Below, piece after piece: positions 9,306-13,069 of a DNA stretch of 36,401 nucleotides (its first letter is position 1; every line of letters begins with the position of its first letter). The notes beneath the pieces are model-generated. The model saw only the letters and a program-made list of their open reading frames with translations, searched no databases and was not told the origin of the DNA. The translations under genes were made by a program, and so were the position numbers. Location of the stretch: NCBI GenBank assembly GCA_031271265.1, contig JAISWB010000095.1:1-36401 (forward strand). The letters are read 5' to 3'. This DNA is from Desulfovibrio sp. (GTDB lineage Bacteria; Desulfobacterota; Desulfovibrionia; Desulfovibrionales; Desulfovibrionaceae).

Positions 9306-10295
9306 TCACGCCGCCCGCTCACGTTTCTCCTTCCATGCCGCATAACGCTGGTAAGGAAGCAGCAACAGAAACAGCGGCACGGAATACATGGCCGCAACCA
9401 GCACTTCCGGCAACGCGAAAAGCTGCGCCGACAAAACAAGCATAAGACCGTTGTTGGCCGTGCCCATGCTCACAACGTAGGCCGTGCTCCGGGCCGCGCT
9501 CCTGCCCCGCCCCGCAAGCATGCCTGTGCCCAGGAATACGGCCGCCAACAAAAACGCCCCGCCCAACGCCTCCGCCACCATAAAAGGATTGGCCCGCAAC
9601 GGCTCGGAAAAACGCGAAAAAATCACGAACATGCTGCAGGCTATGGACGATACCGAAATCACGTAACGCCGGCGCAAAACCCCCGCCGCCAACCCCGGCG
9701 CTCCTCCCCACATCACCTTGGCAACGACGAACGGCACAAAAATATACAGCGCCAGCGCCAGCCCGGTCTTGAAAAACGCCGCCCACAACCCCGACCCGGC
9801 CTCCTGTCCGGCAACGTACAGGTAACTTACCACCAATATCGGCATGGTCAGCGGCAGAATCAGGCAACTCGCCACGACCCCGGCGATGATGAAAGTCACG
9901 TCCGCCCGCGCCAGCCTGCCGAAAAACGGCGCCGTCACCCCTATGGATACGCCCCCCATGAGTATGGCCCCCAAGGTATAACGGGGCAGCAACACCGCGA
10001 AAATGCCCCAGCAGACCAGAGGCGTCAGCAGCATCTTGATCCCCAGAAAACGGGGCAGACCGGCGATATCGGCCGCGCCGGCCGCCGCACCCGGCGCGGT
10101 CGTGTCCAGAAAACACAGCAGAAGCTGAATCATGAGCATCACCGTCAGCAGGTGACGCAACGGTTCGCCGAACTGCGGCAGGCAAACGCCCAAAAGCATC
10201 GCGCCGTACGAACATGCAAGGAAAATCAGGGTGTCTCTGTTCACGGCGCATCTATCCCACAGACGTTTCCCCGAAGTCAATCCGCCGTTCGACAT
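9306..10295 (-). CDS. Bile acid:sodium symporter (BASS) family permease
   Basis: A 329-residue integral membrane protein with about nine or ten hydrophobic segments. Recognisable BASS/SBF patterns are LGIKMLLTPLVCWG, GAILMGGVSIGVTAPFFGRLARAD, SMFVIFSRFSEPLRANP and VSMGTANNGLMLVLSAQLF. Family members move bile acids, pyruvate, pantothenate or other organic anions, usually with sodium; the substrate here cannot be told. The start may be ATG 10295 or GTG 10244, which would remove 17 hydrophilic residues. It is antisense to and embedded in the phage tail module, between the gp14-like and fibre genes, so it looks like inserted cargo. Confidence 0.75.
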   Translation of the reverse strand: MSNGGLTSGKRLWDRCAVNRDTLIFLACSYGAMLLGVCLPQFGEPLRHLLTVMLMIQLLLCFLDTTAPGAAAGAADIAGLPRFLGIKMLLTPLVCWGIFAVLLPRYTLGAILMGGVSIGVTAPFFGRLARADVTFIIAGVVASCLILPLTMPILVVSYLYVAGQEAGSGLWAAFFKTGLALALYIFVPFVVAKVMWGGAPGLAAGVLRRRYVISVSSIACSMFVIFSRFSEPLRANPFMVAEALGGAFLLAAVFLGTGMLAGRGRSAARSTAYVVSMGTANNGLMLVLSAQLFALPEVLVAAMYSVPLFLLLLPYQRYAAWKEKRERAA

Positions 10296-10330
10296 TGTCC
10301 CGTTTTCCGCAAACCATACAGGATGGAAAC

Positions 10331-11284
10331 ATGACCGTCGAAACCACCCTCACCAAAATCATCTACGCGGGCAACGGAGCCGCGACGGAGTTCCCCGTCC
10401 CGTTCCCCTTCAGCCTGCCGCAGGACATCCGCCTGACCTGCACCGCCGCCGACGGAACGGAATACGACCCCTCCGGCAACTACCGCATCGCCGTCACCGC
10501 GTCCGGAGACGCGGCCGTCGTCTTCCCCCTCGCCGGCTCACCTCTGCCGCCCGGCGCCCGGCTCACCGTCCACCGGCACACGCCCCCGGTGCAGATCGCC
10601 GGCCTGCGCGCCGGCGGCGCTTTCAATCCCGAAGTCCTTGAACACGACGTCTTCGACCGCCTCGTGATGATGATCCAGGAACTGCACGAAGCCGTCGGCC
10701 GCGCCGTGAAATTCCCCCTCACCCTTCCGGAAGCGGACGCCGACGGCCTGCTCCGCGCTCTGCTCGCCGACGTCGAAGAGGCGACCCGCACCGCCGAGGA
10801 CGCCCGCGCAACCGCCGCCCTGTGCCGCGCGTATCTCGACGCCCTCCCCGTTCCCGCCCCCGAAGACGCAGGCAAAGTCCTCGCCGTCGCCCTGGTAAAC
10901 GATGCTCCCGCCTTTACCCTGAGACCCGACGCCGCGACAGCCGCCTCCGGATTCGCACAGTACACCCTGCCCGTCATCAACCCCGGCGGCAACGTCGCCG
11001 TCACCCTCGCCGACCTCGGGCACCCGCCTCTCCCCGCCCCCGTCCACCCCGTCGTCAGCCTGCTCTCCTCCCAACCCTACATCTTCACCGTCACCCACCA
11101 AACCCCCCAGGGATTCACCCTGCAAATCTTTTTCCCCGACGGCACCCCCGGCGTCACCTTCGCCGCCTTCATCGAGTGCGGCACAACCGAATGCGGCCCG
11201 CAAACATCCTGCGGCGCCCCCGGCGCCGGCGCCGACGTCCGCCTGCTCATCAGCATCCCCCTGCCTTCTGAAGCGTTTCAATGA
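10331..11284 (+). CDS. Tail fibre/adaptor protein with T7-fibre-like N-terminus
   Basis: A 317-residue virion protein. Residues 1-110 follow the T7 gp17 N-terminal pattern that attaches a fibre to the tail: YAGNGAATEFPVPFPFSLPQDIRL, DPSGNYRIAV, LPPGARLTVHRHTPPVQ and NPEVLEHDVFDRLVMMIQELHEAV. Residues 130-175 form an Ala/Glu-rich helix likely to trimerise, and the rest is beta-rich. It is short for a fibre and lacks an obvious receptor-binding tip. It may be a stalk onto which the next gene product, the Mtd-like protein, assembles. ATG at 10331 follows GGATGGAAAC; the longer in-frame extension has no support. Confidence 0.78.
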   Translation: MTVETTLTKIIYAGNGAATEFPVPFPFSLPQDIRLTCTAADGTEYDPSGNYRIAVTASGDAAVVFPLAGSPLPPGARLTVHRHTPPVQIAGLRAGGAFNPEVLEHDVFDRLVMMIQELHEAVGRAVKFPLTLPEADADGLLRALLADVEEATRTAEDARATAALCRAYLDALPVPAPEDAGKVLAVALVNDAPAFTLRPDAATAASGFAQYTLPVINPGGNVAVTLADLGHPPLPAPVHPVVSLLSSQPYIFTVTHQTPQGFTLQIFFPDGTPGVTFAAFIECGTTECGPQTSCGAPGAGADVRLLISIPLPSEAFQ

Positions 11285-11384: not shown

Positions 11385-12500
11385 ATGGCTGATTTTGCCG
11401 CTTTCTGGCGTGACAGTGAAGCCGGGGTACCCGGCACCTTTCTGACGGCCGTGAACCTTGGGAGGATGCATCCGTCCGTGAGCAGCGCGCATCCACGATA
11501 CCTGACGCCTGACCCCGGCAGCGCGCGCGGGCTTGTGTTCAGGGAAGGAACGTACCTTAAGCTGCGCGGGCCGGATGCGTTCGGCGCGGCGAGGCATTGT
11601 GTTTTCGGTGTAGAGGATGATTTTGCGGTTGCGGATGTCCGGCAACGCCTGGATACCGGTACGGAGTTGCTGCCCGGCCGCGATTATGCGGTTTACCTGC
11701 GGCTGTTGCCGCCGGATGCGGATTCTCCCGCATACAGGGCGGATATCGTCGTCAGCCTGGACCTGGACTGCCCGGCGGGGGCCAACCCCGGCACGGTGCG
11801 CAAGATCGGCGGGTTCCACACGCTCTGCGCCGATGCGGGAAGCATTTCGGGGCATCCGCTCTCCGGTCTGGGCGCGGGCGACATTCTTCCCGGTTCCCTG
11901 TGGGATCTGCTGCACCGCCCGCGCTGCGCGCCCGACGGCATGACGTTCGTGCCCGGTCTGCATCTCTGGGTCGACATCTACCTCCAGTCCGGGACCGGAA
12001 TCGGCACACGTTCCGTTTTCAACGCGATAATAACCGCCGGCCGCAGCTACATGGATCATGTGGATGATTTGGCGGCGGCGGGCAAGCGGTTGCTTTCGGA
12101 TGAGGAGTTCCAGGTCGCGGCCGCCGGTTCCAACGAGCAGGGGTGTTTGGACGCGCGTCCGGACACGACGGGCGGGCATACGGACGACAACGGCCGGCGG
12201 ATGCTTTCCGCGTACGGGCTGGAGGATTGCTGCGGGGCGCTGTGGCAGTGGCTGAGCGGGGGCGGTTGGCGGTTTACGGACACTTCCGACGCTTTCCACC
12301 CCATAGCGGTAAATCCTTCTACGGACTGGCCCGGCGGCAAAGGGCAGATATACCATTCCGACGGACGCTCCGGGCTGATAGGCGGCAGCATGTACGGCAA
12401 TCCGGCGGCGGCGTGCGGGTCGCGCGCCCGCAGCGCATCCGTGCCGCGCTCTGTCTGCGACAATAAAATAGCCTGCCGCGGCTGCGCCGTTCCGGCATAA
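11385..12500 (+). CDS. Mtd-like receptor-binding protein with DGR-type variable C-terminus
   Basis: A 371-residue protein resembling the major tropism determinant (Mtd) of phage BPP-1, which binds the host receptor at the fibre tip. The C-terminal C-type-lectin/formylglycine-enzyme-like fold is suggested by LHLWVDIYLQSGTG, KRLLSDEEFQVAAAGSNEQG, TGGHTDDNGRRMLSAYGLED and CCGALWQWLSGGGWRF. The last 40 residues (from IGGSMYGNP to GCAVPA) follow the GSRAR...I.CRGC layout of variable proteins of diversity-generating retroelements. ATG at 11385 has AAGGAG upstream; a start at 11367 would sit on that site. The gene lies between fibre and lysis genes. No DGR reverse transcriptase or Avd gene follows. 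Confidence 0.8.
   Translation: MADFAAFWRDSEAGVPGTFLTAVNLGRMHPSVSSAHPRYLTPDPGSARGLVFREGTYLKLRGPDAFGAARHCVFGVEDDFAVADVRQRLDTGTELLPGRDYAVYLRLLPPDADSPAYRADIVVSLDLDCPAGANPGTVRKIGGFHTLCADAGSISGHPLSGLGAGDILPGSLWDLLHRPRCAPDGMTFVPGLHLWVDIYLQSGTGIGTRSVFNAIITAGRSYMDHVDDLAAAGKRLLSDEEFQVAAAGSNEQGCLDARPDTTGGHTDDNGRRMLSAYGLEDCCGALWQWLSGGGWRFTDTSDAFHPIAVNPSTDWPGGKGQIYHSDGRSGLIGGSMYGNPAAACGSRARSASVPRSVCDNKIACRGCAVPA
12382..12490 (+). other. Candidate DGR variable region (VR)
   Basis: The 3' end of the Mtd-like gene. Many codons in the presumed variable positions end in C or T (AGC, TAC, GGC, AAT, TCC, GTC, TGC, GAC, GCC), as expected if AAC or AAT codons in an adenine-rich template had been mutated at their first two bases. 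Conserved blocks between them (GGGTCGCGCGCCCGC and TGCCGCGGCTGCGCC) would be the invariant GSRAR and GC-rich homing end. No template repeat with matching adenines was found on either strand of this window, so it would have to be elsewhere or lost. Confidence 0.6.
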
Positions 12501-12526
12501 AAGCCTCCAAACCATAAAGGAGCTTT
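12500..12526 (+). other. Stem-loop after the variable region, containing the lysozyme RBS
   Basis: AAAGCCTCC (12500-12508) pairs with GGAGCTTT (12519-12526), one base bulged. It lies just beyond the stop of the Mtd-like gene, the place where DGR variable regions often carry a hairpin/cruciform used in homing. It also includes the AAAGGAG that serves the lysozyme start, so it could equally hold back lysozyme translation. Confidence 0.45.
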
Positions 12527-12529
12527 CGC

Positions 12530-13069
12530 ATGGTGATGACGAAGAAAAAGACCGGCACGGCGGGCATCGGGCTTGCCGCGCTTGTGGGCGCGGGGGCCGC
12601 GGCGCTGCTGCGGGTCATGATTCCCCTCTACGAAGGCGAGGTTCTGCGCGGGTACGCGGACCCCGTGGGGATAGCCACCAAATGCTACGGAGACACGGAA
12701 AACGTCGAAATAGGCCGGATATACAGCCGCGAGGAATGTCTGCGTTCGCTGGAGAAACGCCTCGCGGACCACGCCGGGCCGGTCACGGCCTGCGTGCCCG
12801 AGCTGGCGGGGTATACGGACGGGGAAAAAGCCGCGGCCGTGAGCCTGGCCTACAACATCGGCGTCGACGCGTTTTGCCGCTCGACGGCGGCGCGCAAATT
12901 CCGGGCCGGGGACAGGCAGGGCGCCTGCGCGGCCTTCGGCATGTGGAACAAGGCGGGAGGCCGCGTCCTGCCGGGGCTCGTGCGGCGGCGCGCGGACGAA
13001 CGCCGCATCTGCGAAAGCGGTCTGGACGTTGACGCAAACCATGCCCTCAACATCAACCCGGGAGACTGA
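12530..13069 (+). CDS. Phage lysozyme (endolysin), GH24, P21-like
   Basis: A 179-residue muramidase of glycoside hydrolase family 24 that cuts peptidoglycan for lysis. The active-site pattern E-8-D-5-T is present as E35, D44 and T50 within YEGEVLRGYADPVGIATKCYGDT; the Cys-Tyr-Gly and later YNIGVDAFCRSTAARKF, ACAAFGMWNKAGG and GLVRRRADERRIC segments resemble the phage P21 enzyme. An N-terminal weakly hydrophobic Gly/Ala stretch (residues 10-28) fits a signal-anchor-release sequence, meaning export by Sec followed by release. RBS AAAGGAGC precedes ATG 12530. The holin-like gene starts two bases downstream. Confidence 0.9.
   Translation: MVMTKKKTGTAGIGLAALVGAGAAALLRVMIPLYEGEVLRGYADPVGIATKCYGDTENVEIGRIYSREECLRSLEKRLADHAGPVTACVPELAGYTDGEKAAAVSLAYNIGVDAFCRSTAARKFRAGDRQGACAAFGMWNKAGGRVLPGLVRRRADERRICESGLDVDANHALNINPGD

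Follow-up and report, generated by a model that had tools for sequence, protein, structure and literature searches.

A prophage Mtd homologue in Desulfovibrio that has very probably lost its diversity-generating retroelement

Introduction

In phage BPP-1, the gene for the tropism protein Mtd is followed by avd, the template repeat (TR) and the reverse transcriptase (RT) gene brt of a diversity-generating retroelement (DGR), a gene order that we confirmed in the BPP-1 record. A prophage in a Desulfovibrio draft genome encodes a protein that resembles Mtd and ends in a segment resembling a DGR variable region (VR), and the next gene encodes a lysozyme. Is this protein still diversified and, if so, by what? 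A sequence-only reading of the locus offered two answers: the VR is diversified in trans by a DGR elsewhere in the genome, or it is a frozen relic. Both have precedents. Schillinger et al. described DGRs with inactivated RTs as well as stable VR-less paralogues beside diversified ones (PMC3521204), and Paul et al. discussed RT-less VRs, including in Nanoarchaeota, as fossils or remote targets (PMC4372165). DGRs are also known from D. piger prophages, where the targets have FGE-sulfatase domains (PMC12724379). Here, we report evidence that the Mtd homologue has very probably lost its DGR.

Results

The DNA analysed here (the window; 36,401 nucleotides) is an entire contig, C63, from a draft genome of 2.55 Mb in 116 contigs, which is 95.4% complete. 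The nearest named relatives of this genome are Desulfovibrio metagenome assemblies, which, from their isolate names, we take to originate from termite guts. The contig starts within a prophage, the structural end of which occupies the first ~14 kb with genes for a head-tail adaptor, a protease, the major head protein, tail and internal virion proteins, a tail fibre, Mtd and an endolysin; beyond ~14 kb follows host DNA, which encodes a sensor kinase as well as transporters. The remaining half of the phage lies outside this contig. Matches of the head protein include phages such as phiV10 as well as Bordetella phages, in agreement with the earlier suggestion that the head genes are BPP-1-like. 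The product of the gene upstream of mtd is, in its N-terminal part, homologous over ~150 aa to the tail-fibre proteins of a prophage on contig C29 of the same genome (45%) and of BPP-1 (28%). On the other side, only 29 bases separate mtd from the endolysin gene (Table 1), as the sequence-only reading had it.

Table 1. Features of the mtd locus in the window and of the RT-linked small protein in other loci
Feature	Position	Strand	Description
Tail-fibre gene upstream of mtd	10214..11284	+	PHROG 1640 tail, E 6e-20
mtd homologue, 371 aa	11385..12500	+	Putative tail-tip receptor-binding protein
Mtd second domain, residues 86-174	11640..11906	+	PF21916, 43.1 bits (cut-off 24.6)
Segment homologous to the VRs of both paralogues	12366..12491	+	No template match; conserved in orthologues
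Spacer 3' of mtd	12501..12529	+	Site of TR and RT in DGR-bearing relatives
Endolysin (lysozyme-type) gene, directly 3' of mtd	12530..13069	+	PHROG 7 endolysin, E 7e-47
RT-linked small protein	L002:2443-2760; L001:2411-2707; L057:7789-8082; L113:7192-7476		Also in ~22 other DGR loci

The assignment to the Mtd family is supported. The 371-aa protein matches the Pfam domain mtd_2nd (PF21916; E 5.9e-11) and the tail protein family PHROG 11262 (E 2e-48). A PDB search with the single sequence found no Mtd, whereas a profile of its family retrieved six solved Mtd sequences, with E-values from 8e-38 (1yu4) to 1e-35, and no further sequence with E <0.1. In addition, an AlphaFold model of the protein (pLDDT 80.5, with residues 1-21 and 295-325 poorly predicted) matches solved Mtd over its full length (Foldseek E 1.6e-19, TM 0.62), and the top Foldseek matches are five Mtd variants (E 1.6e-19 to 5.7e-18, 378-382 columns). 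By model and Foldseek match, the protein has the Mtd fold with a C-terminal C-type lectin domain; moreover, the gene adjoins a phage tail-fibre gene, as expected for this family. We conclude that the window protein is homologous to Mtd, the tropism protein of BPP-1, over its full length; on the basis of this homology, it probably binds a host receptor. Its C-terminal GSRAR...CRGC motif, already noticed as VR-like in the sequence, aligns with the GSRAR...RGCAR of two bona fide DGR VRs found elsewhere in this genome, and the VR homology is therefore real.

By contrast with BPP-1, we matched no RT, template repeat or accessory gene in the window, and the spacer between mtd and the endolysin gene contains neither a repeat or G+C-rich hairpin nor an RT or accessory gene. 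The earlier claim that 36 kb hold neither RT nor TR is thus correct for the window, but it covers only part of the phage because the prophage is cut off by the contig start and gives way to host genes after ~14 kb. Beside the orthologues of window mtd, no RT was found either, and neither the window nor the orthologues gave a match at a meaningful E-value to BPP-1 Avd or any match to the profile of a small RT-linked protein described below. A hairpin/cruciform just after the VR, which is a DGR feature (PMC3240598), is present in BPP-1 and in both DGRs of the source genome but not in the window or the orthologues, but the scan detects it in only 6 of 27 DGR-bearing loci and it is therefore not diagnostic.

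These two resident DGRs were identified in an RVT_1 search of the source genome, which returned two RTs, on contigs C29 and C3, each standing after a paralogue of window Mtd (50% and 47% identity, respectively) and a 126-bp repeat. Both RTs have the DGR-type motif IGNYTSQ, all VR/TR mismatches (14/14 and 11/11) are at template adenines, and the VR/TR pairs share exact words of 29-31 bp. The genome-wide search for a DGR RT that the sequence-only reading had proposed thus did uncover RTs, but each comes with a target and a template of its own. Because the C29 prophage and the window prophage have tail, virion, fibre and Mtd genes in common, we regard the former as a sibling phage that has kept its DGR. 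In other words, the C29 and C3 cassettes resemble the window locus in their paralogous target protein and, for C29, in the related prophage around it, but they differ from it in having a TR, an RT, an RT-linked C-terminal domain and VRs that deviate from the TR at adenines only. The C29 RT frame is broken between the RT and the C-terminal domain (L001:2282-2349, G000:C29) by either a frameshift or an assembly error, while the C3 RT is continuous.

In nearly all Mtd-type DGRs examined, except BPP-1, a protein of ~95 aa is encoded immediately after the RT or is part of the RT as a C-terminal fusion, as in the C3 RT (490 aa). Decayed cassettes excepted, it is not found in RT-less loci. Searches of Pfam, PHROG and NCBIfam gave no confident match, and its AlphaFold model (pLDDT 89) has an OB-fold-like look with weak structural matches. 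Because the loci with this small protein show no match to BPP-1 Avd, it may take the place of Avd.

To which history does the missing DGR point? In a comparison of 94 homologues, the C29 and C3 Mtds form the sister group of the window clade. In a tree calculated without the VR, this relationship to the two DGR-bearing paralogues has support of 99/95 and is nested among DGR-bearing lineages, and loss is therefore the simplest history, with the provisos that rooting was by midpoint only and that label counts cannot prove loss over gain. In the converse history, the window Mtd lineage never had a DGR and the C29 and C3 lineage gained one. The change counts on the tree are compatible with both directions, and DGR cassettes are known to move between phages (PMC3521204). 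We nevertheless consider a gain improbable because the window clade and its sister lie amid DGR-bearing lineages, loss can be seen under way in RT-deleted cassettes, and the window C-terminus retains the VR-type scaffold GSRAR...RGCA.

Among the relatives, RT loss is apparently in progress. Viral contig L047 is 98-99.9% identical to the DGR-bearing viral contig L051 and, at L047:6300-6570, lacks ~1.36 kb in a single deletion that takes in the end of the TR, the RT and the start of the accessory gene, representing an RT-loss allele or a misassembly. In L016 (6949-7452) and L017 (6765-7218), VR and TR are adenine-compatible and an accessory remnant is kept, while the RT between TR and remnant is gone. 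A candidate RT stub in L016 and L047 was rejected because it is the RT-linked small protein. In Marinomonas phage P12026, an Avd-like fragment (L115:5654-5815; 35% over 54 aa, E 8e-7) stands right after an RT-less mtd and is likely a DGR relic in an isolated phage. Because three of these four cases are metagenome contigs, misassembly is possible for any single one. A large radiation of Mtd homologues was also observed in Bartonella genomes (L074-L104), some with several copies per genome; no RT or VR/TR pair was found beside these homologues, and a DGR RT search of ten Bartonella genomes, run without a positive control, was empty. RTs in G130, G131 and G124 (QGGPLSP) and in G125 (IQGCCLSP) were set aside because they are without the DGR-type SQ motif.

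The sequence-only reading had proposed a comparison of related strains, in which an active VR should concentrate variation at the C-terminus. Including the window protein, four orthologues are known, and the other three, from related Desulfovibrio genomes that are 67-86% complete, are 84, 82 and 89% identical to it; the order fibre-mtd-endolysin is the same in L072, the one orthologue sampled on both sides. Divergence among the orthologues is even along the gene rather than confined to the C-terminus: in the six orthologue pairs, the VR/body pN ratio is 0.73-1.14, and pS is well above pN in both parts. By contrast, close pairs of DGR-bearing loci have VR/body pN ratios of 14-41 (p <1e-9). Distant DGR-bearing pairs (C29/C3 and L034/L055) have little or no VR excess, and only close DGR-bearing pairs are informative because the body of distant pairs has diverged too; the orthologue pairs are at an intermediate distance. 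At the positions of the mutable asparagines of the templates, the residues S, S, V and D, K, I are invariant across the four orthologues; at one neighbouring position, both N and D occur, and the NPA loop of three codons in the VR differs. Thus, in the window clade the VR is not hypervariable relative to the gene body, and purifying selection acts on the VR-homologous segment in the same way as on the rest of the gene.

Finally, we searched for a template. In an adenine-tolerant search, in which adenine was accepted in place of any base and up to three additional mismatches were tolerated, the own genome (95.4% complete) yielded only the window itself, and the three orthologue genomes yielded no template; the adenine-specific template predicted for an active VR was therefore not found. 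As a positive control, the same scoring recovers both resident TRs at 126/126. Matches in a blastn search of the window VR against the own genome were at chance level (≤33 bits). In codon-guided alignments with the two resident TRs (an unguided nucleotide alignment to the C29 TR gave 12 bases only), the window VR is identical at 59/123 and 67/123 positions with 52 and 43 non-adenine mismatches, respectively, and because of these mismatches neither TR can be its template. The longest exact word shared with either TR is ≤10 bp.

Given an incomplete assembly, window mtd might be diversified by a third DGR, located in the ~5% of the genome that is missing or in the unsampled half of the phage. We judge this very unlikely: there is no template in any of four genomes; RVT_1 has no match in G127, which carries the 82% orthologue; and an active DGR would be incompatible with the conservation of the VR seen between four species-level genomes. 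Diversification in trans by the C29 or C3 DGR, suggested by two intact-looking DGRs in the same genome with targets 47-50% identical to window Mtd and by remote VRs in other genomes (PMC3521204), is hardly credible with a VR that is not hypervariable in orthologues and that has none of the long shared words and adenine-only differences of the real pairs.

Discussion

Based on these data, we suggest that the window protein is an Mtd-family tail-tip receptor-binding protein that has, with high probability, lost its DGR. In this model, an ancestral Mtd had a DGR, of which the RT, the TR and the RT-linked accessory gene would have been lost. After this loss, the C-type lectin domain would still bind one fixed host receptor on behalf of the prophage. 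The C29 and C3 DGRs would serve their own Mtd paralogues and are not expected to rewrite window mtd because it no longer resembles either template. Of the two answers proposed from the sequence, the frozen relic is the one supported, with no template in the four genomes searched, no RT beside the gene and a VR as conserved as the body. The window VR has been under ordinary selection for long, with no TR left.

Window Mtd and BPP-1 Mtd are alike in their full-length fold, in following a tail-fibre gene and in having the VR at the C-terminus; however, the window is without avd, TR and RT, the endolysin gene comes next, and the VR is conserved instead of diversified. For the RT-less Mtds of Synechococcus phage S-CBS3, Marinomonas phage P12026 and Bartonella prophages, likewise, no adjoining RT or VR/TR pair was found, but these are far relatives of window Mtd, P12026 has an Avd fragment, and the Bartonella Mtds form a separate large radiation. 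The cases described previously (PMC3521204, PMC4372165) share with the window a DGR target without an active RT, either beside diversified paralogues or as a fossil. In those fossils, however, a VR/TR pair or A-directed changes can still be recognized, whereas the window has no TR. RT-less Mtds and DGR fossils are therefore already known, and what is added here is a within-genome comparison and a test of selection.

More broadly, loss of the DGR followed by fixation of the binding surface could be a recurring step in Mtd-type adhesins, such that one genome can pair a fixed adhesin with diversifying sisters, and the Bartonella radiation, S-CBS3, P12026 and the window clade would represent separate fixations; we see the chances of this generalization as evenly balanced. 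The relatives of window Mtd add cases in which RT loss is apparently caught mid-process and a small RT-linked protein that possibly replaces Avd. With one frozen tropism protein and two diversifying ones, a single genome makes it possible to study the fate of a DGR target after loss of its mutator. For the window protein, this fate is purifying selection rather than decay.
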